Shown in pieces: positions 8,997-41,553 of a stretch of DNA of 64,000 bases. Below the pieces are notes generated by a model. That model was not told the DNA's origin and ran no database searches. It saw only the letters and a list, made by a program, of their open reading frames with translations. The DNA is from Labrenzia sp. PHM005 (GTDB taxonomy: Bacteria; Pseudomonadota; Alphaproteobacteria; Rhizobiales; Stappiaceae), in contig NZ_CP041191.1 of the NCBI RefSeq assembly GCF_006517275.1, positions 4,769,001 through 4,833,000 of the forward strand. Reading direction: 5' to 3'. A program made the position numbers and the translations under genes. Numbering within the stretch: the first letter of the stretch is position 1; each line of letters starts with the position of its first letter.

Positions 8997-9830
8997 TTAA
9001 ACCGCAGCTGCCGCCGGAGCCATCACACCGGCGGGTTCTGTTGCGCCGGTTTGACCGGCATCGATGGCGGTTGATGTTGCCGCCTCGTTGAAACTTTCAT
9101 CCGCGCCATAAATCTCGCGGGCGACATCTGTGGTCAGGGCTTCTGGCGCCCCATCAAAAACAATGAAGCCATCGCGCATGCCGATCACGCGGTCGCAATA
9201 GCTGCGGGCCGTGTCGAGCGTATGGAGGTTGCAGATGACGATCTTGTTGTCGCGTTCGTGGATTTCGCGCAGGGCATCCATGACGATCTTGGCGTTCATC
9301 GGATCGAGCGAGGCAATTGGTTCGTCCGCCAGGATCATGTGCGGGTCCTGCATCAGCGCTCGCGCAATCGCAACGCGTTGCTGCTGGCCACCGGAGAGTT
9401 CCTCGGCCCGTTTGGTCGCTTCCTGGGCAATGCCAAGACGGTCGAGCGCGGAAAGCGCGCTGTTGACATCGTCCTGACCGAAGATGTTGAAGAGGCTTTT
9501 CAACGTGCCATGGCCATTTAGGCGGCCGAGCATGACATTGGTCACGACATCAAGGCGCGGAACCAAATTGAACTGCTGAAACACCATGGCGCAGTCGCGC
9601 TGCCAGCGGCGCATCATACCGCCCTTCAGGCTCAGAATATCCCGGTCGTTGAACAGGATCTGTCCCGACGTTGCCGGGGTCAGCCGGTTGATCATTCTGA
9701 GAAGGGTCGATTTGCCCGCACCTGACCGGCCGATGATGCCAACCATCTGCGGTTTGTCGATGTTGAAAGAGACCTTATTGACCGCAGTCCGGGACCCGAA
9801 AGTCTTGGTGACGTTCTGAAAGTGAATCAC
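8997..9830 (-). CDS. phnC: Phosphonate ABC transporter ATP-binding protein PhnC
   Basis: An ABC ATPase of about 277 residues, given as starting at GTG 9830 so that it begins [21 protein letters not shown] at 9872 would add 14 residues without family resemblance. It has Walker [11 protein letters not shown]-loop [15 protein letters not shown], signature LSGGQQQR, Walker [14 protein letters not shown] and an H-loop histidine in CNLHTLDTA. The C-terminal tail is Ala/Thr-rich. It powers the PhnE permeases and is the first gene of the operon, preceded by two Pho boxes. Confidence 0.92.
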
Positions 9831-19627: not shown

Positions 19628-20752
19628 TCAGCAAGCGACCGACGACACCGCCTTGCCGGTTAATGCGACAGCCTGTCCGGTACGCGCAGATTGCTGAGCG
19701 GCCAGACCCATTTCAACGGCCCGGCGGCCGTCTTCCAGGGAGACGTCAACTTTAGCCTTTTCGCCGCGCACCACAGCAACAAAGCCTTCATGCTGATAGA
19801 AGGTCGAACCATTGTGATCCCCGGCATCCAGAATTGTCGGGTCAACCGGAATATCCAGCTGGCGCGGCCCTTTCGGATGGCGCGGCGAGACAACCAGTTG
19901 CGGCACCGGGGGCTCACCAAGGTCTTCTGGCCAGAACCGGCCTGGACCCGGTACATAAGCTTCGATCTTGCCGTCCGGCCCAACGGCCGAGACCTCTTCC
20001 TGATAGCGGGAGCCTTCGGCGAACATGCAAAGTTCCAGCATGGCGCGGGCGCCGTTCTCGAAATCGACGATTACATACCCATTGTCGAGAATATCCGGTG
20101 TCTGGCCGTCGTAGCTCTCGTCCATATGATTGGCGTCCTGACCGGCCGACGCCATGACGCGGACTGGCTCGCTCTTCATGATCAGGCGCATTAGATCGAA
20201 GAAATGGCAGCATTTTTCGACAAAAGTGCCGCCGGAATACCGGTTGAACCGGTTCCACGCCCCGACCTTGTCGAGAAACGGAAAGCGGTGCTCGCGGATT
20301 GTCAGCATCTTGATACCGCCGGTGGCCTGTTCGGCCTGCTCGATCAGGGCGGCGATCGGCGGCATATAGCGGTATTCCATCGCAACCCAGACCGGCGCCG
20401 GATAAGACGCCTTGAACGCGTCCAGTGCGGCAATGTCCTTTGGATCGGTGAAAAGCGGTTTTTCAACGAGCAGCGGCAGAGGGCGTTTGCGGCGGATTTC
20501 TTCCATCTGCGGCACATGGCAGTGGTTGGGACTGACGATCAGAATGCAGTCCAGCTCTTCCACATCCAAAAGCGCATCGACGGAATCGACCAGCTTGGCT
20601 GAAGAAGCGAATTTCAACGCTTCCTGCGCCATGCCCACGTCAGGTTCAAAAATGGCCACAACGTCCGTGTCCGGCAGCAACGCGATGTTGCGCAAATGCT
20701 CTTGGCCCATCATGCCACAGCCGATGACGCCGTATCTTACCTTCGCAGGCAT
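19628..20752 (-). CDS. Gfo/Idh/MocA-family NAD(P)-dependent protein (sugar dehydrogenase or oxidoreductive glycosidase)
   Basis: A 374-residue two-domain protein. An N-terminal Rossmann fold with GVIGCGMMGQEH near residue 8 is followed by the family motif LLVEKPLF near 95-102 and a mixed C-terminal domain (GGTFVEKCCHFFDLMRLI). The EKP lysine and a histidine in CCHFFD fit the usual active site. It is encoded beside a GntR regulator and opposite a SmoCBA-like operon. In that context it could be a sugar dehydrogenase for a sulfosugar or, since GH109/GH188-type NAD-dependent glycosidases share this fold, the missing sulfoquinovosidase. The family is certain; the substrate is inferred. Confidence 0.85.
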   Translation of the reverse strand: MPAKVRYGVIGCGMMGQEHLRNIALLPDTDVVAIFEPDVGMAQEALKFASSAKLVDSVDALLDVEELDCILIVSPNHCHVPQMEEIRRKRPLPLLVEKPLFTDPKDIAALDAFKASYPAPVWVAMEYRYMPPIAALIEQAEQATGGIKMLTIREHRFPFLDKVGAWNRFNRYSGGTFVEKCCHFFDLMRLIMKSEPVRVMASAGQDANHMDESYDGQTPDILDNGYVIVDFENGARAMLELCMFAEGSRYQEEVSAVGPDGKIEAYVPGPGRFWPEDLGEPPVPQLVVSPRHPKGPRQLDIPVDPTILDAGDHNGSTFYQHEGFVAVVRGEKAKVDVSLEDGRRAVEMGLAAQQSARTGQAVALTGKAVSSVAC

Positions 20753-20790
20753 CTGGTACTCCTATTCGCAGCGGATCGTTTCATGTCCGC

Positions 20791-21501
20791 CTATTTCAGT
20801 CGCTGAACGTAATGCGCCCTGTCGGTATCGAACCAAGTGCGCGAGTATTCGACCGGCTCGGGCTTATCCGCCCAACTGAACCGTTCGATGTAACCTATGA
20901 GAGTCCCGGGGGCCTTGGAGAATTCCGCCGGCGCCCACTCCGGCACGGCTTTGATCGTCACCCTGTCTTCGGCGCGGACGATCCAAAAGCCAAGGTGCTT
21001 TTGGTAATAACGGTAAAGCGAATCTGAAAGCTGGTCGCGCCGGATGGCGCCGCTATCCCCATCCAACCAGATTTCCTCGACCGCAATGATGGTATCGTTG
21101 AGATATCGCAACCGTCGAATGCGTGTACCTTCTGTACTGGTGCCAAACTCCGGCAGCTCCACCGGCTTGGCTCCCCGCTCGATGTCCAGAACATCGGCTC
21201 TCGGCAGCCCGCCCCCGGACAAAAGCTCCAGGCGGAACATAGCGTAGACACTTTCAGTCGTGCCGCCTTGGCGTATGTAGTTTCCCGAACCCTGAATGCG
21301 TTCCAGCAAGCCCTTCTCCGTGAGATCGGCCAGCGCCTTCCGCAAGGTGCCGATGGAAATTCCCAGCTCTTCCGCCATGTCCCGTTCCGGCGGCAAACGT
21401 TCTCCATCCAGAAGCCGGCCAGCTGCAATATCCCTAATCAAAAGCTCACTAATTTGCACATAAAGCGGCAAAGAATTTGAGGTCTGCGGGGCGGTCGTCA
21501 T
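20791..21501 (-). CDS. GntR-family regulator (HutC/UTRA type)
   Basis: A 236-residue regulator. The winged HTH at about 12-75 includes LPLYVQISELLIRDIAAGRL and LPPERDMAEELGISIGTLRK. The UTRA ligand-binding domain fills the rest, with SVYAMFRLELLSGGG and VEEIWLDGDSG. The ATG at 21501 gives the canonical N-terminus; an ATG at 21570 would add 23 unrelated residues and cover the operator. It is divergent from the monooxygenase operon and upstream of the Gfo/Idh gene (38 bases apart), so it probably represses both and is relieved by a sulfosugar or metabolite. Confidence 0.88.
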   Translation of the reverse strand: MTTAPQTSNSLPLYVQISELLIRDIAAGRLLDGERLPPERDMAEELGISIGTLRKALADLTEKGLLERIQGSGNYIRQGGTTESVYAMFRLELLSGGGLPRADVLDIERGAKPVELPEFGTSTEGTRIRRLRYLNDTIIAVEEIWLDGDSGAIRRDQLSDSLYRYYQKHLGFWIVRAEDRVTIKAVPEWAPAEFSKAPGTLIGYIERFSWADKPEPVEYSRTWFDTDRAHYVQRLK

Positions 21502-21529
21502 GACTGTGCGGCGATCTGTCTGCGAAGAA

Positions 21530-21554
21530 TTGATACACCATTGATTTACATCAA
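21530..21554. promoter_or_regulatory. Probable GntR operator/promoter of the monooxygenase operon
   Basis: TTGATACACCA-TTGATTTACATCAA contains an outer inverted repeat (TTGAT...ATCAA) in the divergent spacer. It overlaps likely promoter elements for both directions. The link to the GntR protein is positional. Confidence 0.45.
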
Positions 21555-21632
21555 GGCGAATGATAAGCAAGGAAAAACTGAAGGCAAAATGAAAGCCTTC
21601 GAAAACAAAAAGTTCCTCTTAGGAGATCCTGA

Positions 21633-22787
21633 ATGACTGTGGTTCCCGTAACCTCGCCGGACCTCGATGCTGCAGAAGTGTCCTGGTTTGCAGCGCTGTG
21701 CTCGGATGACTATCAATTCCTCGGTGTTCCGGAGGGCCAGTTGCGCTCGTCCTGGGACCACTGCTCTTCCATCGTGAAAACCGCCGAGGCCCAAGGGTTC
21801 CGCAACATCCTGTGCCCTTCATCCTATCAAGTTGGACAAGACACCTTGAGTTTTGTGGCCGGCTGCGCGCCGATCACGGATAAAATCAACCTGCTGGCAG
21901 CGGTGCGCTGCGGTGAGATGCAGCCGATCATGCTGGCGCGCACCATCGCAACGCTCGACCACATGCTGAAAGGCCGCCTGACGGTCAACATCATCTCGTC
22001 CAACTTTCCGGGTGAAGAGGCCGACAGCAAGTACCGCTATCAGCGCTCGCGTGAAGTGGTCGAAGTTTTGAAACAGGCCTGGTCCCGCGGCGAAATCGAT
22101 TACGAAGGTGAGATTTACAATTTCAAAGGCCTGACCACCGATCCGGTCCGTCCTTATCAAACCGGCGGCCCGTTGCTGTATTTCGGCGGTTATTCCCCGG
22201 ATGCCCTCGACCTGTGCGGGGAACATTGCGACGTCTATCTGATGTGGCCGGAAAAGATCGAGGAGCTGGAAGGCCGGATGAAGGCCGTCCATGCGGTCGC
22301 GGACACCTACGGCCGTACGCTCGACTATGGCCTCCGCGTCCATATGATCGTGCGGGACACCGAAAAAGAAGCCCAGGAATACGCCGACTACATCGTTTCC
22401 AAATTGGACGACGATCAGGGAACTGCGATCCGGGAACGGGCGCTGGACGCCAAGTCGCTCGGTGTCAGCCATCAGTCGAAGAACCGCGAGATTGCCGATG
22501 AGTTCGGCTACATCGAACCGAACCTTTGGACCGGTGTCGGCCGGGCCCGCTCCGGCTGCGGCGCTGCTCTTGTTGGTTCCACCGATCAAGTCATGAGCAA
22601 GATCGAAGCCTATCAGAAGATGGGCATCCGGGCCTTCATCTTCTCCGGCTATCCGCATGAAGAAGAAGCCATTCATTTTGGCGAACGGGTTCTGCCCAAC
22701 CTGAAGACCTGTTCGCTTCCAGAAGCCTATGGCCGTGTTCCGGCCGAAACACCAGCAACCCCGCTCGGCAAGGGAGTCCGCCGCTAA
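21633..22787 (+). CDS. LLM-class FMNH2-dependent monooxygenase, SmoC/SsuD-like (sulfosugar or alkanesulfonate)
   Basis: A 384-residue luciferase-like TIM-barrel monooxygenase. Visible features are the N-terminal VSWFAALCSDDYQFLGVPEG, the barrel strands GRLTVNIISSNFPGEE and LYFGGYSPDA, the loop GRARSGCGAALVGSTDQV and GIRAFIFSGYPHEEE near the end. These are SsuD-type features, and the pattern recalls the sulfoquinovose monooxygenase SmoC. It should use FMNH2 and O2 to cleave the C-S bond of a sulfonate, releasing sulfite and an aldehyde. It is first in an operon whose next genes supply a reductase for the aldehyde product and FMNH2. AGGAGA precedes the ATG. Confidence 0.85.
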   Translation: MTVVPVTSPDLDAAEVSWFAALCSDDYQFLGVPEGQLRSSWDHCSSIVKTAEAQGFRNILCPSSYQVGQDTLSFVAGCAPITDKINLLAAVRCGEMQPIMLARTIATLDHMLKGRLTVNIISSNFPGEEADSKYRYQRSREVVEVLKQAWSRGEIDYEGEIYNFKGLTTDPVRPYQTGGPLLYFGGYSPDALDLCGEHCDVYLMWPEKIEELEGRMKAVHAVADTYGRTLDYGLRVHMIVRDTEKEAQEYADYIVSKLDDDQGTAIRERALDAKSLGVSHQSKNREIADEFGYIEPNLWTGVGRARSGCGAALVGSTDQVMSKIEAYQKMGIRAFIFSGYPHEEEAIHFGERVLPNLKTCSLPEAYGRVPAETPATPLGKGVRR

Positions 22788-23677
22788 TGGATCGCGTCAA
22801 CCTATCTGACACGCTTGATTTTTCCCGTCTCATCTACGGCATGTGGCGGCTTGGCGACGACACAGACACCTCCCCGGCTCATGTGGAGCGCAAGATCCAG
22901 ACTTGCCTCGATCAAGGCATCACCACCTTCGATCAGGCGGATATCTACGGCGGTTATGCGGCTGAAGCTGTGCTGGGCGGTGCGCTGAAGGCCAATCCGT
23001 CCTTGCGCGCCAAAATGGAAATCGTCACCAAATGCGGCATCATCGCACCGGCCGGACGCTACGCGGGTGCCAAGGCAAAACATTACGACACATCCCGGGC
23101 CCATATCGAAAAGTCGGTCGAGATCTCCTTGTCCGAAATGGGCATCGACACCATCGACCTTCTTTTGATCCACCGCCCGGATCCTTTCATGGACCATCAC
23201 GAGACTGGCGCGGTTCTGGACGGTCTGGTGTCATCCGGCAAAGTCAAAAATGTTGGCGTCTCCAACTTCCGCCCGTGGGACTGGGAGCTGTTGCAGTCCG
23301 CGATGAAAAACCAGCTCGTCACCAACCAGATCGAAATCTCCTTGAAGGAGATCACGCCGTTCACCAACGGTGATCTTGCCTTCCATCAGCGGCTTGGAAC
23401 AAAGCTGATGGCTTGGTCTCCGCTCGGCGGCGGATCGTTAATTTCGGAAGGCGGTAACCTCGGGTCCGTCCTAGACGATATCGCCGGATCCTTCGGTGTC
23501 GACCGCTCTGCAGTGGCTGTTGCGTTTCTTTTGGCGCATCCGGCACAACTCATGCCGGTCCTTGGCACCAACAATCTCGACCGGATCGGGAAGATCTCGG
23601 ACGCGCTCAAGGTCACTCTTGATCGCGAAACCTGGTACCGTCTTTACGAGGCGGCCCTTGGAAACGAGGTTCCCTAA
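22787..23677 (+). CDS. Aldo-keto reductase, SmoB-like (6-oxo-glucose reductase candidate)
   Basis: A 296-residue aldo-keto reductase with Asp in TFDQADIYGGYAAE (general D-x-x-x-Y motif), Lys in IVTKCGI, His in LLLIHRPDP, and the NADPH-binding end PVLGTNNLDRI. The opening LSDTLDFSRLIYGMWRLGDD closely recalls SmoB of the Agrobacterium sulfoquinovose monooxygenase pathway, which reduces 6-oxo-glucose to glucose. Its ATG overlaps the stop of the monooxygenase gene by one base, which indicates translational coupling. By position it should reduce the aldehyde made by desulfonation. Confidence 0.85.
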   Translation: MDRVNLSDTLDFSRLIYGMWRLGDDTDTSPAHVERKIQTCLDQGITTFDQADIYGGYAAEAVLGGALKANPSLRAKMEIVTKCGIIAPAGRYAGAKAKHYDTSRAHIEKSVEISLSEMGIDTIDLLLIHRPDPFMDHHETGAVLDGLVSSGKVKNVGVSNFRPWDWELLQSAMKNQLVTNQIEISLKEITPFTNGDLAFHQRLGTKLMAWSPLGGGSLISEGGNLGSVLDDIAGSFGVDRSAVAVAFLLAHPAQLMPVLGTNNLDRIGKISDALKVTLDRETWYRLYEAALGNEVP

Positions 23678-24192
23678 TGACCATGCACACTGCCGATCAC
23701 ACTGTGACCTTTGCGCCCCATTCGGAAAACACCCGGCTGCTGCGGGATGCTTTTGGACGGTTCGCCACTGGGGTCACGGTTGTGACCACCAATTCCGATG
23801 ACGGCCCGGTTGGCATTACGGCCAACAGCTTTTCATCTGTCTCCATGAACCCGCCGCTGGTTCTGTGGATGCCGGATAAAGGCTCGCGCCGCTTCCGCTA
23901 TTTCGAGACGGCTGAACATTATGCCATCCACGTTTTGAGCCATGAGCAGGCGGAAATTTGTAATGGCTTTGCCAGAAACGCACATGCGTTCGATCAACTC
24001 ACCTACCGGCTTTGCGATGAGGGGGTTCCCCTGATCGAGAATTGCCTGGCACGGTTCGAGTGCAAACGGTTTGCGGCCTATGAGGGGGGCGATCATTTGA
24101 TCGTTTTGGGCCAGGTCACACAGGCAGAAATGCGATCCGGCGATGCCTTGACGTTTTTTTCCGGAAAACTCGGACAATTCGTTCCAAAGTAG
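23677..24192 (+). CDS. Flavin reductase (SmoA-like, NAD(P)H:FMN)
   Basis: A 171-residue flavin reductase-like domain protein. Characteristic parts are the FGRFATGVTVVTTNSDDGPV start, GITANSFSSVSMNPPLVLW and YAIHVLSHEQAE, the FMN-binding and dimer regions of the DIM6/NTAB family. It should provide FMNH2 to the upstream monooxygenase. The start codon overlaps the preceding stop by one base. The order monooxygenase, aldo-keto reductase, flavin reductase equals smoC-smoB-smoA. Confidence 0.88.
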   Translation: MTMHTADHTVTFAPHSENTRLLRDAFGRFATGVTVVTTNSDDGPVGITANSFSSVSMNPPLVLWMPDKGSRRFRYFETAEHYAIHVLSHEQAEICNGFARNAHAFDQLTYRLCDEGVPLIENCLARFECKRFAAYEGGDHLIVLGQVTQAEMRSGDALTFFSGKLGQFVPK

Positions 24193-24201
24193 GAGCGCAA
24201 G

Positions 24202-24222
24202 ACGGGGCGGCACCCGCCCTGT
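24202..24222 (+). promoter_or_regulatory. Hairpin between the enzyme genes and the TRAP genes
   Basis: ACGGGGCGG-CAC-CCGCCCTGT forms a compact stem in the 58-base spacer before dctQ. There is no T-run, so it is more likely an mRNA-processing or partial-attenuation site than a full terminator. Confidence 0.45.
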
Positions 24223-24250
24223 CATCATTGGGAATACCAGGGAGGAACCC

Positions 24251-24841
24251 ATGGGGGCATTGCTTGCGGTCTTACGTCTGCTTTCCTTTTTCAATTCGCA
24301 TTTGTTGCGGGTTGGTCGTGGTGTTGGGGTTGTTGCGGTTGCTTTGATGGTGGTTGCGATCCTGATCCAGGTTGTGTTCCGCTATGGGTTCAACAATGCG
24401 CTGCCCTGGCCCGATGAGGCGGCGCGGTTCTGCATGTTGTGGATGACCGGCCTGATGGCGCCGACGGCGCTGCGGCGGGGCGGATTTGTCGCCATCGATA
24501 CCCTGGTGATCATGCTGCCCAGGCAGCTGGCAAGCGCCTTGTCCCTGGTGCTGTTGTTTGTCTCGCTTGCCGTTCTCGTTGTTGCCGTTCAGATCGGCTA
24601 TGCGGAAGTCACCGGTTTTGGCGGCAAATTTGCCACCGCCTCGCTCTATGTGCCCAGCAATTTGAGCTTGAGTGAGTGGATGCGGGTGCCGCGCAGCTGG
24701 ATGATGCTGTCGCTGCTGGTTGGCGTGGTGCTGCTTATCCTGGTGAATGTGGAACTGATCCTGCGTTCCCTGATCGGCTTGTTCGGCGGTGAAGATCAGC
24801 TGCCCCGCATTCCCGATGCAGATATGGCGGGGGCAGACTGA
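24251..24841 (+). CDS. TRAP transporter small permease (DctQ type)
   Basis: A 196-residue membrane protein with four predicted helices: VGVVAVALMVVAILIQVVFR, MLWMTGLMAPTALRRG, LSLVLLFVSLAVLVVAVQIG and WMMLSLLVGVVLLILVNVEL. The DctQ motif RYGFNNALPWPDEAARFCML is intact. It bridges the binding protein and the large permease. GGGAGGA precedes the ATG. It overlaps the dctM start by one base. Codon use at the very start is T-rich compared with its neighbours. Confidence 0.88.
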   Translation: MGALLAVLRLLSFFNSHLLRVGRGVGVVAVALMVVAILIQVVFRYGFNNALPWPDEAARFCMLWMTGLMAPTALRRGGFVAIDTLVIMLPRQLASALSLVLLFVSLAVLVVAVQIGYAEVTGFGGKFATASLYVPSNLSLSEWMRVPRSWMMLSLLVGVVLLILVNVELILRSLIGLFGGEDQLPRIPDADMAGAD

Positions 24842-26130
24842 TGCTGATCTGGTTCCTGCCTGTCTTTCTTGTGTTCCTGATGATCGGCCTGCCGGTGTTC
24901 TTCGGCCTTCTGGCCGCTCCGGGGCTGTTGTTGTGGCTGAACGGTCAGGAGCGCGACATCACGCTTTTGTACCGCAATGTCTATAACGGCATGGATAGCT
25001 TCCCGCTGATGGCGATCCCGTTCTTCATGCTGGCCGGAGAATTGATGAACAAGGGCGGCATTACGATGCGCCTGGTGGAGTTCTCTCAGGCCTTGATGGG
25101 GCATCTGCGCGGCGGCCTTGCCCATGTCAACATCCTGTCGTCGATGCTGTTTGCCGGTCTCTCCGGTTCGGCGGTCGCCGACACGTCTGCGCTCGGCTCC
25201 ATGCTGATCCCGGCGATGGAAAAACAGGGGTACACCCGCCGCTTTGCCGCCGCCATCACCGCGGCCTCCTCCGTCATTGGCCCGATCATTCCGCCGTCCG
25301 GCATCATGATCATCTATGCCTATGTCATGGGCGAGAGTGTTGCCGCGCTGTTCCTGGCCGGCATTGTGCCCGGCGTCATGGTCGGTGTTGGCCTGATGCT
25401 GATGGTCAAGGTCATGGCCGACAAATACGACTTTCCGGTTGCCTCCAGAAAGTCGACCTGGCGCGAGCGCGGCCAGGCGTCCCTAAAAGCCTTCTTTCCG
25501 CTGATGACCCCGGTGATCATTCTGGGCGGCATTCTGGCCGGCGTCTTCACGCCGACAGAAGCCGCGGCCGTCGCCGTGGCCTATGCGCTGGTGATTGGTC
25601 TGTTTGTGCTTCGAACCTTGAAGCCTCATGAGATCCCGGGTGTCTTGAACCGGGCCGGCATCACCTCGGCCGTGGTTCTGCTTTTGGTTGGCGCGGCGAT
25701 GGCCTTCAAGACCGTGGTCAGCTTGAGCCATGCGCCGGAGATCATGGCGGACTTTGTGCTCAGCCTGACCGACAACCCGCTGATCTTGTTGTTCTTAATC
25801 AACCTGCTTTTGTTTGTGGTCGGTATGTTTTTGGACGCCGGACCGGCGATCATCATCCTGGGGCCGATCCTGGGGCCGATCTTCACCTCAATGGGGGTCG
25901 ATTCCATCCACTTTGCCATCATCATGAGCGTCAACCTGACCATCGGTCTGGCGACGCCGCCGATGGGGCTGGTTCTGTTTGTTGCGGCCTCTGTCTCCAA
26001 AGAGCGGGTGGAGACGATTGCCAAGGCCATTCTGCCGTTTCTGGCGGTGGAGATCGCGGTGATCTTTTTGATCACCTACATTCCGGCACTGTCCATGACG
26101 ATCCCGCGTCTGACCGGATTTGCCAACTGA
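24841..26130 (+). CDS. TRAP transporter large permease (DctM type)
   Basis: A 429-residue sodium-coupled permease with about 12 helices. Family signatures include PFFMLAGELMNKGG, LFAGLSGSAVADTSALGSML, IPPSGIMIIYAYVMGES and DAGPAIIILGPILGPI. It should import the substrate of the neighbouring monooxygenase system with the DctQ and DctP partners. Known sulfoquinovose monooxygenase clusters use an ABC importer (SmoEFGH), so a TRAP importer here would be a replacement. Confidence 0.9.
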   Translation: MLIWFLPVFLVFLMIGLPVFFGLLAAPGLLLWLNGQERDITLLYRNVYNGMDSFPLMAIPFFMLAGELMNKGGITMRLVEFSQALMGHLRGGLAHVNILSSMLFAGLSGSAVADTSALGSMLIPAMEKQGYTRRFAAAITAASSVIGPIIPPSGIMIIYAYVMGESVAALFLAGIVPGVMVGVGLMLMVKVMADKYDFPVASRKSTWRERGQASLKAFFPLMTPVIILGGILAGVFTPTEAAAVAVAYALVIGLFVLRTLKPHEIPGVLNRAGITSAVVLLLVGAAMAFKTVVSLSHAPEIMADFVLSLTDNPLILLFLINLLLFVVGMFLDAGPAIIILGPILGPIFTSMGVDSIHFAIIMSVNLTIGLATPPMGLVLFVAASVSKERVETIAKAILPFLAVEIAVIFLITYIPALSMTIPRLTGFAN

Positions 26131-26155
26131 TCTGAGCTCAAAAGGGAGGAACCTC

Positions 26156-27214
26156 ATGCTCAAATCTGCCCTGAAATCCCTAACGGTCGCGGCGATGCTC
26201 GCCGGCTCCGCCTTGAGTGCGGCGGCTGCCGACTACACGCTGCGCGCCACCGCCAACTCCAATGAAAACGATGAAGACTACGACGGTCTTGTGGTGTTCA
26301 AGAACTTCGTGGAAGCAGCCTCCAACGGCGCCATCGAAGTGGAGCTCTACATCGGCACGCAGCTGTGCTCGAACGGTGCGGAGTGCCTGCAAGGGGTCGC
26401 GGGCGGCGCGATCGACATCTACATCTCCACCTCCGGCGGGGCGTCCGGCATCTTCCCGTATGTCCAGGTGCTCGACCTGCCCTACATGATGAGCGATGAC
26501 CGCATTGCCGAGCATGTTCTGAGCGGGGACTTCACCCGCACCATGCGCACCATGGCGCTGGAAGATTCAGACAACACCATCCGCTTGATGACCATCGGCA
26601 ACACCGGTGGCTGGCGCAACTTTGCCAACACCAAACGCCGCGTGGCCGCCCCGGCCGACATGGAAGGCCTCAAGATCCGCACGGTTGTCGCCGACCTGCC
26701 GCAGGAGCTGGTGAAAGCCCTGGGTGCGTCGCCCACCCCGATCCCGTGGCCGGAGCTGTTCACCTCCTTCCAGACCGGCGTTGTGGAGGGCTCCAAGAAC
26801 GGCATCACCGACATCATGGGCATGAAGTTCCCGGATGCCGGCCTGCAGTATGTCACCCTCGACGGTCATGCCTACATGGGCGCGCTGTGGTGGATGAGCA
26901 ACGAAAAGTTCCTGTCCTTGCCGGAAGACATGCGCCGGGTGGTGGTTGACGGCTTTTATGCCCTGCAGCAGGCAACCTTCGCCTCACCGAAGCGCAAGTC
27001 GATCAAGGCCTATGAAGACTTTGTCGCCGGAGGCGGCGATCTTTATGTGCCGACCCCGGCCGAAAAAGCGGCCTTCAAGGAAGCGGCAACCCCGGTCTAT
27101 GCCTGGTTTAAGGAAAACGTCGGCCGCGGCGGCGAAATCTTCGGCGCCCTCGAAGAGGCCGTCAAAGCCGCAGAAACCGACATCAATGCAGCCAGAAATG
27201 CTGACCTGAACTAG
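26156..27214 (+). CDS. TRAP transporter solute-binding protein (DctP type)
   Basis: A periplasmic binding protein of about 352 residues. From ATG 26156 (after GGGAGGA) it has the signal peptide SLTVAAMLAGSALSAAAA. The DctP signature ALGASPTPIPWPELFTSFQT, followed by GVVEGSKNGI, is visible with the conserved Arg in GLKIRTVV. Two cysteines lie close together in QLCSNGAECLQG and may form a disulfide. The ligand is inferred from the operon to be a sulfosugar or other sulfonate. It is the last gene and is followed by a hairpin. Confidence 0.88.
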   Translation: MLKSALKSLTVAAMLAGSALSAAAADYTLRATANSNENDEDYDGLVVFKNFVEAASNGAIEVELYIGTQLCSNGAECLQGVAGGAIDIYISTSGGASGIFPYVQVLDLPYMMSDDRIAEHVLSGDFTRTMRTMALEDSDNTIRLMTIGNTGGWRNFANTKRRVAAPADMEGLKIRTVVADLPQELVKALGASPTPIPWPELFTSFQTGVVEGSKNGITDIMGMKFPDAGLQYVTLDGHAYMGALWWMSNEKFLSLPEDMRRVVVDGFYALQQATFASPKRKSIKAYEDFVAGGGDLYVPTPAEKAAFKEAATPVYAWFKENVGRGGEIFGALEEAVKAAETDINAARNADLN

Positions 27215-27223
27215 AAAGACAAA

Positions 27224-27576: not shown

Positions 27577-28071
27577 TCAACGGAACGGGTACATCCAGAC
27601 CTTGTAATCGGCGACAAGAACATGCGCTTTTTCAATCTCTTCCTTGGTCATCTTCTTAACGACTTCCTCCAGGGAAATCGCAGCGTCCGGATCACCGCCA
27701 ATGGCCGACAGCGTGTACCACATATATGCCCGGACCAGATCGGGCGCCGGCATGCCGCGACCAATCTCGTAATACCAGCCGATGCCGGACTGCGCACCCG
27801 GATGCCCCTTCAGGGAACTTCTCAAGTACCACTCAAACGCCCGTTGGTCGTCGCGCTCAACTCCAAGGCCCATGGCGTACATGACGCCGATCAGCTCCTC
27901 GGCGTCCGCATTGCCGGACCGGGCGGCCGGCCACAGTTCCTTCATCGCCTCTTCAAATTTCCCGGCTTCCATCAGGTCGCGCGCAGCTTCGATTTCAGCT
28001 TGAGCCGGAAGACACAACGGGCTCACGGCAAGCGAAAGAGCGACAATCGCGGCTTTGGCGGTTTGCTTCAT
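27577..28071 (-). CDS. Sel1-repeat exported protein
   Basis: A 164-residue protein with a signal peptide (AKAAIVALSLAVSPLCLPAQ) and Sel1/TPR-like helical pairs: MEAGKFEEAMKELWPAARSG, AEELIGVMYAMGLGVERDD and AQSGIGWYYEIGRGMPAPDL. Such proteins are usually periplasmic scaffolds for protein contacts. The 5' end overlaps the inferred start of the divergent peroxidase gene by nine bases. Partner unknown. Confidence 0.8.
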   Translation of the reverse strand: MKQTAKAAIVALSLAVSPLCLPAQAEIEAARDLMEAGKFEEAMKELWPAARSGNADAEELIGVMYAMGLGVERDDQRAFEWYLRSSLKGHPGAQSGIGWYYEIGRGMPAPDLVRAYMWYTLSAIGGDPDAAISLEEVVKKMTKEEIEKAHVLVADYKVWMYPFR

Positions 28072-29397
28072 AAGGTCTGGTCCATCCCTCTGGTGTGCCT
28101 TGCGGTTTCGCCAGCACTTTCTGCAAGTTTACCTGCTCCGCTGACCCAAGACGATTTTCTGGTTTTTGACCACAAACAAGCGGCGCTCGGTCAGCTGTTA
28201 TTTTACGACAAGATCCTGTCCGGGAACAGGAATATTGCGTGTGCGACCTGCCATCATCCAAAGTTTGGCACAGGCGACGGCCTGTCCCTCGGCATTGGGG
28301 AAGGCGGGGTTGGTTTGGGGCCCAAAAGAACAGCCGGAGACGGCGCCAGCCGGATTAAGAAACGGATTCCGAGAAACGCGCCAGCGCTTTGGAATTTGGG
28401 CGCAAAAGATCTTCATACCCTGTTTCATGATGGCCGGCTTTCCATCGCCGAGACTTACGAAAACGGTTTTAATTCACCTGCGGAAGAATGGTTGCCGACC
28501 GGCTTCAATTCTCTGCTTGCCGCGCAGGCGGTATTCCCGCTGGTGGCCCAATTCGAGATGTCCGGCAATCCGAAAGAAAACGAAATTGCCGGGGCGGTCC
28601 ATGACCGGATTGATGCGGCCTGGCCGATCCTTGCCAAACGGGTTCGGATAATTCCTGAATACGGTCAAATGTTTATCGACGCTTTCGCGCATATTGAATC
28701 CGCTGAAGAGGTGACAATCGTCGAGATCGCCAACGCACTCGCGGCGTTCCAGGCAATTGAATGGCAGAGTTTTGACAGCCCCTTCGATCACTATCTTTCG
28801 GGGAATAAAGCCGCCCTCACCTCACCGCAAAAACGAGGTCTGGATCTCTTTTATGGCAAGGCCGGATGCGCTGCCTGCCATTCCGGCCCGCTGATGAGTG
28901 ACCAGAAATTTCATGCCCTCGGCCTCCCGCCCTTCGGCCCCGGACGGACGCGGCGTTTTGATCCGATGGTTCGCGATGTCGGACGCATGGGAGAAAGTGA
29001 TGCACTGGACGATGCCTACCGTTTTCGTACGCCAATGCTGCGCAATGTCGAGCTGACCGCCCCTTATGGTCACAACGGCGCCTATCCGACGCTGGACGGC
29101 ATTATCCGCCATCACCTTGACCCCGATGGCATGCTGGCTAACTGGCAACCGGACGTGGCGGCGCTTCCAGATGCGCCCTGGCTCGCGCCGATTGATTTTG
29201 TCGTCTGGCGTGATAAACGGGAAATGGCCCGCCAGGCCCGGTTCCGCGATGTCGACCCGATGTCTCTGACCGATCCCGAAATTTCTGATCTCGTGGCCTT
29301 CCTCAGGGCCCTCACCGGCACAGCCTCTGTGACAACACCGCCCTTTGGCGTTCCAGATAAGGTTCCCAGCGGCCTGCCGGTCGACACTCCACAATAA
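28063..29397 (+). CDS. Di-haem cytochrome c peroxidase/MauG-family protein
   Basis: A periplasmic di-haem protein of about 444 residues. The CxxCH motifs are CATCH at residues 60-64 and CAACH at 269-273. The PFFH-like features NAPALWNLGAKD and TPMLRNVELTAPYGHNGAYP are typical. The family reduces peroxide or, for MauG members, oxidises a protein partner. The start is inferred at TTG 28063, which gives a good signal peptide (VWSIPLVCLAVSPALSASLP); frames reaching further upstream run antisense to the Sel1 gene and are not credible. The YeiH gene follows after 13 bases. Confidence 0.82.
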   Translation: MLHKVWSIPLVCLAVSPALSASLPAPLTQDDFLVFDHKQAALGQLLFYDKILSGNRNIACATCHHPKFGTGDGLSLGIGEGGVGLGPKRTAGDGASRIKKRIPRNAPALWNLGAKDLHTLFHDGRLSIAETYENGFNSPAEEWLPTGFNSLLAAQAVFPLVAQFEMSGNPKENEIAGAVHDRIDAAWPILAKRVRIIPEYGQMFIDAFAHIESAEEVTIVEIANALAAFQAIEWQSFDSPFDHYLSGNKAALTSPQKRGLDLFYGKAGCAACHSGPLMSDQKFHALGLPPFGPGRTRRFDPMVRDVGRMGESDALDDAYRFRTPMLRNVELTAPYGHNGAYPTLDGIIRHHLDPDGMLANWQPDVAALPDAPWLAPIDFVVWRDKREMARQARFRDVDPMSLTDPEISDLVAFLRALTGTASVTTPPFGVPDKVPSGLPVDTPQ

Positions 29398-29410: not shown

Positions 29411-30445
29411 ATGGTGGAACCATTGAAGGACCGGGCCAATCAGTTGTTCCCGGGCATAGCGATTGCCGGCCTGGTGGCAATTTCCGCGCAGTTCCTCAAC
29501 GAACATTACGGCGCCCCGGCCATGCTGATGGCCATCCTCTTGGGCATGCCGCTGAACTTCCTGTCCGAGGAACAAAAGACGGCCGAAGGCATTGCCTTTT
29601 CAGCCAGAACCTTGCTGCGGATCGGCGTCGCGCTTCTGGGTGTGCGGATCAGCGTGGATATGGTGGAAGCGCTTGGCTTGCCGTTTCTGGCCCTTGTGAT
29701 TGCTGGTGTCCTGGCAACGATTGGCTTTTCGCTTTTGATCGGCAACCTCTTTGGCAAGGACCGGTTGTTTTCTTTCCTGTCCGGCGGGGCCGTCGCAATC
29801 TGCGGGGCTTCGGCGGCCATGGCGATCGGTTCCATTCTGCCCAAACGCGAGCATGCTGAGCGCGACCTTGCCTTTACCGTGATCACGGTAACGGTGCTCT
29901 CCACGCTTGCCATGATCTTCTACCCGATCCTGACCGGTTCCCTAGGATTGACCACCGATGAAACCGGCGTCTTTTTGGGCGGCACAATTCATGATGTTGC
30001 TCAAGTGGTTGGCGCAGGTTTTTCGATTTCCGAAGAAACCGGCGACCTCTCAACCTTGGTCAAGCTGATCCGCGTCACGCTTTTGGCTCCGATCGTTCTG
30101 GTGGCGGCGCTTATCCTGCGGAAAGGGTCGGCACCTGATGCAGCCCGCCCGCCGCTGATGCCGGCGTTTGTTATTGCCTTTCTGATCCTGGCAACGTTCA
30201 ATTCCTTTGGCCTGATCCCGGAGATGGCCAAAGATGCCGCCAGTCAGGTCTCCCGCTGGGCGCTATTGGCGGCGATCGCAGCCGTCGGCATGAAAACCTC
30301 GATCCCCAAACTCCTGGAAGTCGGCGGCCCTGCCATCTGGATGGTGGTCACCCAAACGATCTTCCTGGCGCTCTTTGTCCTGGGTGGGATTTGGTTGATT
30401 GGGGGCGCTCCCCAAACTCCGTCATTACCCGGCCTGTCCGGGTAA
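29411..30445 (+). CDS. YeiH/UPF0324-family membrane protein (putative sulfate exporter)
   Basis: A 344-residue protein with about ten membrane helices. Signatures are LLRIGVALLGVRISVDMVEA, SGGAVAICGASAAMAIGS and FLGGTIHDVAQVVGAGFSIS. The family is annotated as putative sulfate/sulfonate-derived anion exporter from context with sulfonate degradation genes. Here a C-S bond-cleaving cluster lies 2.2 kb upstream, so removal of sulfite or sulfate is a sensible inference. The last six codons (LPGLSG) are formed by a REP-like palindrome. Confidence 0.82.
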   Translation: MVEPLKDRANQLFPGIAIAGLVAISAQFLNEHYGAPAMLMAILLGMPLNFLSEEQKTAEGIAFSARTLLRIGVALLGVRISVDMVEALGLPFLALVIAGVLATIGFSLLIGNLFGKDRLFSFLSGGAVAICGASAAMAIGSILPKREHAERDLAFTVITVTVLSTLAMIFYPILTGSLGLTTDETGVFLGGTIHDVAQVVGAGFSISEETGDLSTLVKLIRVTLLAPIVLVAALILRKGSAPDAARPPLMPAFVIAFLILATFNSFGLIPEMAKDAASQVSRWALLAAIAAVGMKTSIPKLLEVGGPAIWMVVTQTIFLALFVLGGIWLIGGAPQTPSLPGLSG

Positions 30446-38910: not shown

Positions 38911-41553
38911 ATGTCTGAAGACTATCAATCGGACAGGAAAGCCGGATCAAGCGGCCTGTCTGAAGAAGAACTTCAGGAATTGGTCGCCGCGTCCGATTCA
39001 GGGTCACGTAATCCGGCCGGTGCCATAGGCCTTTTTCTCGCATCTATCGCACTCATCTGGTCCGCATTTCAGGTCCTTCTGGCATCTCCACTCTCGAACT
39101 ATGTTCTACCCAGCGACCTCATCAACAACAGCCGTCAGGTTCACCTCGCCTTCGCCATCTTCCTGGCGTTCATGGCTTACCCCGCGCTGAAAAGCAGCCC
39201 GCGCCATCACATTCCGTTGCAAGACTGGGCGCTGGCCCTCGCTGGGACTTTCATGGCGCTTTATGGTCTGTTCTTCTACGACAAGATCGTCAACAACGGC
39301 GGTTTGGCAGATCACACGGACAAATGGTTCGCGCTCGCAGGCATCATCATCCTGTTTGAAGCTGCGCGCCGGACACTCGGTCCGGCAATGGCCGTGGTTG
39401 CAACGATCTTCCTGCTTTATGTCTTCTTCGGCTCGTCCCAATGGGTGCCTGAAGTCATGCGCTGGAAAGGCGCATCGCTGCAAAAGGCGATGAGCCACAT
39501 GTGGATTACATCCGAAGGGGTCTTCGGCATCGCCCTTGGCGTCTCGACCAAATTCGTCTTCCTGTTTGTTCTCTTTGGCGCTCTGCTCGATAAGGCCGGC
39601 GCAGGCAACTACTTCATCAAGATGGCATTTGCCGCACTTGGCCACTTGAAGGGCGGACCGGCGAAGGCTGCTGTTGTCGGTTCTGCAGCAACCGGCCTCA
39701 TCTCCGGCTCCTCCATCGCCAACGTGGTCACCACAGGCACTTTCACCATTCCGCTGATGAAACGGGTCGGTTTCAGCTCAGAACAAGCGGGATCTGTTGA
39801 AGTTGCCTCATCGGTGAATGGCCAGATCATGCCACCGGTTATGGGCGCCGCCGCCTTCCTGATGGTAGAATACGTCGGCATCTCCTATGTCGAAGTGATC
39901 ACCCATGCCTTCCTGCCGGCGGTCATCTCCTACATCGCGCTGGTCTACATCGTGCACTTGGAAGCGGTGAAGCGGAACATGCCGACCATCGGCCATAAGA
40001 CCGTTTCTACGCTGCGCACAATCCTAGGCATGTTCTTCTTCTTCGCCGGATTTGCAGCGCTGTGTTACGGCATCAAATTCCCGATTGGTTGGATTACAGC
40101 CCTTGTGCCGGATGGTGCCAGCTGGATCCTCGCAGTCCTGGTTTTTGTCGCTTACGTGGCACTTCTGAAAATGGCTGCTAGCGTCGAAGACCTGCACCCG
40201 GACGATCCGAATGCCAAAGACATTGTGCTTCCGGAAATCGCTGACATTTACAAATGCGGCCTTTATTACCTGCTGCCGATCATCGTTCTGGTTTACTTCC
40301 TGATGATCGAACAGAAATCTCCGGGCCTGTCCGCCTTCTGGGCGACCATGCTGCTCTTTGTCATCCTGCTCACCCAGCGGCCGATCAAGGCGATCTTCCG
40401 CGGTGAAAACGAGATGGTCGAGGAGTTCAAAGAAGGCATCAACGACCTTGCCAAAGGCATGATCGACGGCGCCCGCAACATGATCGGCATCGGTCTGGCA
40501 ACCGCCACCGCCGGCATCATTGTAGGCACCGTGACCCTGACCGGTATCGGCCAGGTTATGGCGGACCTCGTTGAACTGGTCTCCGGCGGCAATCTGGTCC
40601 TGATGTTGGCATTTGTCGGTCTTCTGTCCCTCGTCCTGGGCATGGGCCTGCCGACAACAGCGAACTACATCGTTGTGTCCTCGCTGATGGCCGGTGTGGT
40701 TGTTGAACTCGGCGCGCAATCCGGCCTGATCGTGCCGCTGATTGCCGTTCACCTGTTCGTCTTCTACTTCGGCATCATGGCGGACGTGACACCGCCTGTG
40801 GGTCTTGCCTCCTTCGCCGCGGCAGCGGTGTCGGGCGGTGATGCCATCAAGACCGGCTTCACAGCGTTCTTCTATTCGCTGAGAACCGTTGCGCTACCGT
40901 TTGTCTTCATCTTCAACACAGACCTTCTGTTGATCGATGTGGGATGGGGCCAGGGCATCTTGGTGTTCATCATGGCAACGATAGCCATATTGGCGTTCAC
41001 CGCCGGAACCATGGGTTATTTCATGACCCGGTCCCGCATCTACGAGAGCATTGCTCTGGTATTGGTCGCCTTCATCCTGTTCCGTCCGGACTTCTTCATG
41101 AACCGGATCCAGCCTCCGTATGAAATGATCGAACCGGCGAATTTCGTCCAGACAGTTGGCGAAGCACCTTCGGGAGATCAAGTGCGGGTCACCGTTTCCG
41201 GACCGGACTTTGACACAGGGTCCAAGGCCGAAACGACTTTTGAGCTGACCGTCGGCAGCGAAGCCGATGGTGATGCTCGCTTGTCGGCAGCCGGTCTCAC
41301 GGTTCTCGTCGAAGACGGCGTTGTGAAACTGGATGAGCCTTTCCCTGGCACGCCGTATTTTGAAAAACTCGGCAACTTCGACTTCTATGGCGATGATCCC
41401 GTTGTCATTAAGTCTGCCCAGATCGAAATGCCTCAGATGCCGAAGGAACTCATCTACATTCCCGGCCTGTTGCTTCTCGGACTGATCTATCTGCTGCAGC
41501 TCCCAAGAGCACGGGCAAGCCGCAAAGAAGAACAAGAAGGAGCGCTGGCATGA
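38911..41553 (+). CDS. TRAP transporter fused permease (4TM/12TM, TAXI type)
   Basis: An 880-residue fusion of small and large TRAP permease parts. The N-terminal helices (IGLFLASIALIWSAFQVLLA and on) act as the DctQ equivalent. The DctM-like core includes GSAATGLISGSSIANVVTTG, MGLPTTANYIVVSSLMAGVV and DVTPPVGLASFAAAAVSGGD. A soluble stretch at about 735-845, after the last core helices, contains beta-rich sequence (EAPSGDQVRVTVSGPDF), followed by a final helix (LIYIPGLLLLGLIYLL). It overlaps the universal stress protein gene by four bases. Confidence 0.92.
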   Translation: MSEDYQSDRKAGSSGLSEEELQELVAASDSGSRNPAGAIGLFLASIALIWSAFQVLLASPLSNYVLPSDLINNSRQVHLAFAIFLAFMAYPALKSSPRHHIPLQDWALALAGTFMALYGLFFYDKIVNNGGLADHTDKWFALAGIIILFEAARRTLGPAMAVVATIFLLYVFFGSSQWVPEVMRWKGASLQKAMSHMWITSEGVFGIALGVSTKFVFLFVLFGALLDKAGAGNYFIKMAFAALGHLKGGPAKAAVVGSAATGLISGSSIANVVTTGTFTIPLMKRVGFSSEQAGSVEVASSVNGQIMPPVMGAAAFLMVEYVGISYVEVITHAFLPAVISYIALVYIVHLEAVKRNMPTIGHKTVSTLRTILGMFFFFAGFAALCYGIKFPIGWITALVPDGASWILAVLVFVAYVALLKMAASVEDLHPDDPNAKDIVLPEIADIYKCGLYYLLPIIVLVYFLMIEQKSPGLSAFWATMLLFVILLTQRPIKAIFRGENEMVEEFKEGINDLAKGMIDGARNMIGIGLATATAGIIVGTVTLTGIGQVMADLVELVSGGNLVLMLAFVGLLSLVLGMGLPTTANYIVVSSLMAGVVVELGAQSGLIVPLIAVHLFVFYFGIMADVTPPVGLASFAAAAVSGGDAIKTGFTAFFYSLRTVALPFVFIFNTDLLLIDVGWGQGILVFIMATIAILAFTAGTMGYFMTRSRIYESIALVLVAFILFRPDFFMNRIQPPYEMIEPANFVQTVGEAPSGDQVRVTVSGPDFDTGSKAETTFELTVGSEADGDARLSAAGLTVLVEDGVVKLDEPFPGTPYFEKLGNFDFYGDDPVVIKSAQIEMPQMPKELIYIPGLLLLGLIYLLQLPRARASRKEEQEGALA

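Follow-up and report, generated by a model that had tools for sequence, protein, structure and literature searches.

The stretch of DNA analysed here, hereafter the window, comprises 64,000 nucleotides of contig NZ_CP041191.1 of Labrenzia sp. PHM005, whose genome consists of two contigs and 6.19 Mb. Its positions 19628-27214 harbor eight genes that are very probably concerned with the uptake, deglycosylation and desulfonation of sulfoquinovose. Two of them, coding for a Gfo/Idh protein and a GntR regulator, lie on the minus strand and diverge from the six plus-strand genes smoC, smoB, smoA, dctQ, dctM and dctP; in this order, their products belong to the Pfam families GFO_IDH_MocA, GntR plus UTRA, Bac_luciferase, Aldo_ket_red, Flavin_Reduct, DctQ, DctM and DctP. 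The genes smoC and smoB, as well as smoB and smoA, overlap by one base (TAATG, read directly in the sequence), dctQ and dctM share one base according to their coordinates, and a gap of 58 bp separates smoA from dctQ. An initial annotation had described this gene set, the divergence of gntR and gfo/idh and the one-base overlaps, and coordinates, Pfam matches and the TAATG sites agree with it throughout. Such an arrangement is not due to chance. The search for SmoC relatives retrieved at least 576 of them, and the best 80 loci were retained for the neighborhood counts, so that near relatives are over-represented therein (loci and genomes are referred to below by L and G numbers). The smoB gene directly follows smoC in 79 of these 80 loci; gntR was found near smoC in all the 78 loci having at least 2.2 kb upstream, and gfo/idh in 74 of the same 78. 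The seven nearest loci (L006-L012; SmoC 90-94% identical) all carry Roseibium or Labrenzia names.

The core of the locus is represented by the three enzyme-coding genes. The smoC gene (21633..22787, plus strand) is predicted to encode a sulfoquinovose monooxygenase dependent on reduced flavin mononucleotide (FMNH2), since its product is 76-77% identical to the solved SmoC proteins 7oh2 and 7olf (693 and 692 bits, respectively), whereas the next distinct protein reaches 194 bits and SsuD 188. The residues W206, R236, H238, R307 and Y341 of 7oh2, which we take, as regards both their choice and their role, to be the active-site set of SmoC, correspond to W205, R235, H237, R306 and Y340 in the window numbering, and are identical in 91 out of 91 aligned rows, a number that counts the host gene three times (window, L001 and L109) and in which L107 and L029 appear to be one contig. 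The smoB gene (22787..23677, plus strand) codes for an aldo-keto reductase that matches 7bby and 7bbz with 423 bits, the next score being 206. Lastly, smoA (23677..24192, plus strand) encodes a flavin reductase (Flavin_Reduct, 124 bits; 155 bits to 4xhy) that is predicted to supply FMNH2, and none of its 20 solved matches bears the name SmoA. The core of the SmoCBA-type oxidative sulfosugar pathway that the initial annotation had recognized is thus supported: the monooxygenase scores with SmoC and not with SsuD, and the presumed active-site positions are retained.

The Gfo/Idh protein (19628..20752, minus strand) is predicted to be a sulfoquinovosidase dependent on nicotinamide adenine dinucleotide (NAD). 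It shares 67% identity with the solved marine sulfoquinovosidase 8zn9 and 47-49% with the NAD-dependent sulfoquinovosidases 8qc2-8qc8 (presumably family GH188); sequence and fold comparison alike place it with the solved sulfoquinovosidases, a large gap separating it from other Gfo/Idh proteins. It begins directly with the Rossmann fold, and a signal peptide is not evident in its sequence. Three queries for sulfoquinovosidases of glycoside hydrolase family 31 (GH31), one of which was the enzyme of L110 (1202 bits to 5ohy), matched L110, L111, L099-L102 and L086, and gave no match in the window or, L086 apart, in L006-L092; L086, the only PF01055 match of the host genome, lies 4.1 Mb away and shares 24% identity with the enzyme of L110. 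Judging from these similarities, deglycosylation is most likely the task of the Gfo/Idh protein, in place of the GH31 enzyme SmoI. The initial annotation had anticipated a different deglycosylation step, as we find; it had also listed the gfo/idh gene, missing its likely role in that very step.

The transport genes belong to the tripartite ATP-independent periplasmic (TRAP) type, and all three subunits are encoded on the plus strand: the small permease by dctQ (24251..24841; Pfam DctQ, 76.9 bits), the large permease by dctM (24841..26130; Pfam DctM, 402.8 bits; TIGR00786, 426 bits, above cut-off) and the solute-binding protein by dctP (26156..27214; Pfam DctP, 176 bits; NF037995, 130.5 bits, above cut-off; TIGR00787, 142 bits, below the cut-off of 175). 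The start of dctP is most likely the ATG at 26156, behind AGGGAGG, rather than the TTG at 26120 of the open reading frame list. In DctP, whose N-terminus, hydrophobic by eye, is read as a signal peptide, W155, R156, R177 and N217 (numbering of window:26150-27211), including the conserved arginine R177, are invariant in 25 of 25 aligned proteins; its structure model has a pLDDT (predicted local distance difference test) score of 82.1, and in the fold comparison numerous TRAP binding proteins scored a few Z units apart, so that no single ligand was picked out. The position of these genes in the place of the importer of the ATP-binding cassette (ABC) type, as first annotated, is confirmed by the three Pfam families; when the ABC proteins of L092 served as tblastn queries, the sole match in the window was an ATPase-like stretch at 9144 (30%). 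These queries comprised no true SmoF; the binding protein of L092 has two solved matches at 1e-10, and SmoF is the name of neither. On the basis of its context, we propose sulfoquinovose and/or its glycerol glycoside as the ligand of DctP. The window also holds three DctM-like matches (31-33% identity) at 39565, 49269 and 54367, that is, further TRAP-type genes. In L036, L040, L044, L050, L063 and others, the tblastn alignments of DctM extend over 110-115% of the query or fall into two pieces, which suggests an insertion of some tens of residues in those loci.

The proposed cargo is suggested by a second copy of the transporter. The duplicated segment (24280..27217, plus strand) recurs, according to blastn, at C2:2187557-2190494 of the host genome, within L093 (G000:C2:2180000-2199999), with 99.97% identity and one mismatch in 2938 bp. 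The surrounding run comprises genes for a SuyB-like protein, GntR, DctQMP, a PfkB kinase, a DeoC/LacD-type aldolase (a family assigned through the L099 relative, 65% identical), an SftI-related isomerase, a mutarotase and an aldehyde dehydrogenase; encoded farther upstream are a TctC receptor and two proteins resembling phosphoglycerate dehydrogenase and sulfolactate dehydrogenase (the latter with 186 bits against a cut-off of 500). This second cluster likely represents SftI-type sulfoglycolysis, i.e., the isomerase/kinase/aldolase pathway that we assume to be the one called sulfo-EMP2-like. Sulfoglycolysis splits the carbon chain and at first keeps the C-S bond, whereas SmoC removes sulfite directly. 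Since the two pathways, provided that both are interpreted correctly, share only the substrates that precede their first enzymes, the cargo of the TRAP transporter should sit upstream of both, and we therefore propose that it imports sulfoquinovose or its glycoside. DctP occurs in 39 of 45 genomes belonging to the genus, and the host alone shows two full-length copies (G427 has two fragments on two contigs). Isomerase/kinase/aldolase clusters share the TRAP clade with the window and, in several genomes, also a gene similar to that of the Gfo/Idh sulfoquinovosidase, which in L094, L103, L104 and L105 is located in the same run. In L099-L102, a YicI-like GH31 gene adjoins the isomerase/kinase/aldolase and TRAP clade genes, at the place where other clusters have gfo/idh, and it might code for a further type of sulfoquinovosidase. 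That the L099 enzyme is a classical sulfoquinovosidase is not supported, since it resembles YicI (346 bits) more than YihQ (145 bits); L100-L102 hold relatives of it at 86% identity.

To learn what the TRAP transporter serves, a single set of 397 genomes from the order was screened for DctP, for SmoC, for the Gfo/Idh protein and for the isomerase of the second cluster, with the best 4 or 5 candidates per genome being scored (thresholds: E<=1e-60 for DctP, E<=1e-100 for SmoC and E<=1e-40 for the SftI-related isomerase). SmoC was found in 21 genomes, the isomerase in 31 and either of them in 51. Out of the 35 genomes with DctP, 34 carry SmoC or the isomerase (the exception is G239), versus 51 of 397 overall, a hypergeometric probability of 2.7e-35 that ignores kinship; at 70% DctP identity or more, this is true for 18 of 18 genomes (10 with SmoC and 9 with the isomerase, the host having both). 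At the level of single places, 31 of 44 dctP genes lie within 5 kb of SmoC (10) or of the isomerase (21), and in all 10 SmoC-type genomes gfo/idh is located 6.4 to 6.9 kb from dctP. The Gfo/Idh protein itself occurs in 37 genomes, 32 of which have SmoC or the isomerase, in 30 of the 37 within 6 kb. When 74 DctP proteins were arranged in a quick tree, the two contexts proved to interchange, and the starred branches force at least three changes each for the sulfoquinovose monooxygenase (SMO) and isomerase labels. The uptake of sulfoquinovose or its glycoside by the TRAP transporter is thereby supported by context. A PhyH-family gene was observed between dctP and the accompanying Sel1/MauG-like pair described below in L095 (12755-13477), L097 (~7926), L008 (~16767) and L026 (~15657), and the DctP proteins of L008, L026 and L097 group on the tree (support 81, not starred). 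Such clusters may represent a further sulfoquinovose or organosulfur route; an assignment of the gene to a known sulfoquinovose dioxygenase is not supported, the best solved relative of the L095 protein being EvdO2 (62 bits).

The gntR gene (20791..21501, minus strand) codes for a GntR/UTRA regulator (GntR 63.7 bits, UTRA 76.9 bits), whose start is most likely the ATG at 21501 and which we propose to act on the smo promoter. Between gntR and smoC lies the operator-like motif ATTGATACACYATTGATYTAC (21529..21549, plus strand). All 81 regions inspected, from the 80 loci and the window, have it upstream of smoC: in 78 it falls within 130 bp, with 4 core substitutions at most, and in the remaining 3 an exact match is located farther upstream. 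The host genome contains one site at up to 3 mismatches, the backward-read control giving none. The initial annotation had supposed a different regulator, an idea that our data do not sustain: in L110 and L111, which harbor genes for a GH31 sulfoquinovosidase and an ABC-type importer, the GntR protein encoded next to smoC is 60 and 59% identical to that of the window, and both loci carry ATTGATACATCATTGATCTAC, one letter off the motif consensus. Since L110 and L111 share regulator and motif with the window, the regulator is common to the classical type, and it is the uptake and deglycosylation modules that differ. With up to 3 mismatches allowed, searches of L093 and of the smoC-less clusters of L094-L105 and L108 did not retrieve the motif; L113 yielded neither the motif, with up to 4 mismatches allowed, nor a match to GntR. 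Perfect FNR-type boxes (TTGAY-N4-ATCAA) were set aside as the main operator because they are present upstream of smoC in just 44 of the 81 regions.

Downstream of dctP, three more genes deserve mention. They code for a Sel1-repeat protein (27577..28071, minus strand; Pfam Sel1, 54.1 bits), a MauG-like protein of the di-haem cytochrome c peroxidase family (28081..29397, plus strand, start uncertain; CCP_MauG 115.8 bits; TIGR03981 267 bits, below the cut-off of 340), two CxxCH motifs being present in 48 of 49 relatives, and a putative sulfate exporter of the YeiH/PF03601 type (29411..30445, plus strand, with a presumed start; PF03601 217.8 bits; TIGR00698 131 bits, below the cut-off of 232.6). 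In the smoC loci having at least 8 kb downstream (46 with and 18 without the TRAP genes), Sel1 accompanies 37 of the 46 TRAP loci and none of the 18 others, and the MauG-like gene 35 of 46 and none of 18. The pair also stands beside TRAP genes in L094, L095 and L097, where smoC was not found, and Sel1 alone does so in L099-L102; neither gene was found with the second TRAP copy in L093. Thus, the pair seems to travel with the transporter, though not with the L093 copy. The YeiH-type exporter was found in 9 of the 46 TRAP loci and in 9 of the 18 others, and should therefore be considered an optional part, possibly serving sulfite efflux; it also occurs near smo genes in L087, L089, L090, L091 and L106.

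How far the importer varies can be read from the 74 smoC loci having at least 4.5 kb downstream: 55 have dctM of the window type within 4 kb, 9 have an L092-like ABC binding protein instead, and 10 have neither, the ABC binding protein having been sought within 10 kb. Three of the latter (L065, L066 and L080) show weak ABC permease matches (27-33%), and for this reason some of these loci may have other ABC importers. In L012 and L029 (Roseibium marinum and R. aquae), TRAP genes were not found in the smo clusters, and a YeiH-type exporter directly follows smoA. There are also clusters, for instance L112, L114, L115 and L116, that combine a gene resembling that of the Gfo/Idh sulfoquinovosidase with genes for an ABC importer.

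On the whole, we hold with good confidence that the locus is a sulfoquinovose monooxygenase operon in which two modules have been exchanged with respect to the Agrobacterium type, i.e., a TRAP transporter for the ABC importer and an NAD-dependent sulfoquinovosidase for the GH31 enzyme SmoI. According to this scheme, whose enzymatic reactions are drawn by analogy from solved relatives and from the general literature, DctQMP would import sulfoquinovose and probably its glycerol glycoside, and the cytoplasmic NAD-dependent sulfoquinovosidase, of the presumed GH188 type, would free sulfoquinovose. SmoA would reduce flavin mononucleotide, and SmoC, with FMNH2 and O2, would yield sulfite and 6-oxo-glucose, which SmoB would reduce to glucose, a reaction that we likewise assume by analogy. 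GntR would control the smo promoter by binding the conserved site, and sulfite may exit through the YeiH-type carrier.

Several data weigh against this scheme, or at least against its generality. The homology of DctP does not reveal its ligand, because the nearest solved relatives (4p47 and SiaP) score just 106-113 bits. Nineteen of the 74 smoC loci, including the Roseibium loci L012 and L029, are without a window-type DctM within 4 kb, so that smoC does not require this transporter, and a DctP of the window clade is encoded nearby in 10 of the 21 smoC genomes found in the order sample. Conversely, at 13 of the 44 dctP places neither SmoC nor the isomerase is encoded within 5 kb; those of G205 and G029 (70 and 77% identity) adjoin a PhyH-family gene, with isomerase and Gfo/Idh on other contigs, and 5 of the 37 genomes with the Gfo/Idh protein carry neither SmoC nor the isomerase. 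Furthermore, the contexts are clustered on the DctP tree, with 6 changes for the SMO label and 4 for the isomerase label versus means of 11.4 and 8.7 for shuffled labels, and therefore much of the association between transporter and pathways is inherited rather than independent. Lastly, the L093 isomerase scores 246.9 bits against NF048012 (SftI), whose cut-off is 700, and no solved protein matched it at E 1e-5; it is related to this family and below its threshold, for which reason the second pathway is itself one that we infer.

As for the other interpretations, it is possible, and we entertain it tentatively, that the TRAP transporter takes up free sulfoquinovose only, the cytoplasmic sulfoquinovosidase serving glycosides that enter through another carrier or are made inside the cell; this is a sub-variant of the scheme proposed above, with which its probability overlaps. 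It would fit with TRAP binding proteins of known ligand, which mostly bind small acids, and with the dctP clusters lacking an adjoining window-type gfo/idh (the second copy in L093 and L099-L102). However, because the Gfo/Idh protein starts with the Rossmann fold and shows no visible signal peptide, and because its gene keeps close to dctP in the 10 SmoC-type genomes of the order sample, the import of the glycoside represents the simplest reading. A bolder idea, which appears to us doubtful, is that DctQMP, Sel1 and the MauG-like protein form a pathway-independent sulfoquinovose uptake cassette moving among desulfonation, sulfoglycolysis and a possible PhyH-dioxygenase route, the di-haem enzyme performing an oxidative maturation (e.g., of a tryptophan of DctP or of the Sel1 partner) needed for uptake.

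It is improbable that the transporter imports another organosulfonate (isethionate, sulfolactate, dihydroxypropanesulfonate or taurine) or a plain sugar acid, and that it neighbors smoCBA merely by way of a general sulfonate island. Although sulfolactate-like genes are present in L093, they have their own TctC-type receptor; moreover, the transporter is linked to smoC, whose pathway is not known to yield sulfolactate, as well as to the isomerase/kinase/aldolase genes of several genomes, some with gfo/idh in the same run. In addition, DctP matches the isethionate-binding protein IseP no better than the sialic acid-binding SiaP (92 vs. 106 bits), the window protein sharing 22-26% identity with these two characterised proteins. 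Finally, an SsuD-like scavenging of sulfur, in which various sulfonates are cleaved under sulfur starvation, is hardly credible, since, even though the monooxygenase is a member of the SsuD family in the broad sense (TIGR03565, 246 bits, below the cut-off of 518), it scores far higher with SmoC than with SsuD, and its cluster also encodes a sugar reductase of the SmoB type and a protein resembling sulfoquinovosidases.

The exchange of the two modules has to be seen against the systems already described. The sulfoquinovose monooxygenase pathway of Agrobacterium tumefaciens and Rhizobium oryzae comprises SmoABC, the ABC importer SmoEFGH and the GH31 enzyme SmoI. The window resembles it in SmoC, SmoB and the presence of a flavin reductase, and the GH31- and ABC-containing loci L110 and L111 in the divergent gntR gene and the upstream motif; it differs from the Agrobacterium type in the TRAP transporter, in the Gfo/Idh enzyme, and in the MauG-like/Sel1 pair and YeiH-type exporter placed downstream. 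The operon is, therefore, a widespread variant of a known pathway. The solved NAD-dependent sulfoquinovosidases ArSqgA (8qc3/8qc5/8qc6) and that of Flavobacterium (8qc2/8qc8) come from genera other than that of the host, and 8zn9 (released 2025-08-27 under the title "A vast marine sulfonate-based carbon cycle fueled by novel sulfoquinovosidases") is a protein distinct from the window Gfo/Idh enzyme; this type of cluster may already be described in the work behind 8zn9.

Sulfoquinovose is among the most abundant organosulfur compounds of algae and plants. Among the smoC loci nearest to that of the window, which mostly bear Roseibium and Roseobacter-group titles, that is, names of bacteria with a marine habit, the most frequent form combines a TRAP transporter, a Gfo/Idh-type sulfoquinovosidase and SmoCBA. 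Thus, such an arrangement may be a main entry route for sulfoquinovose in the sea. The genomic context proposes a ligand for an uncharacterised TRAP clade and, in a single genome, the presence of the same importer beside two chemically different pathways offers a natural test of what this importer carries.

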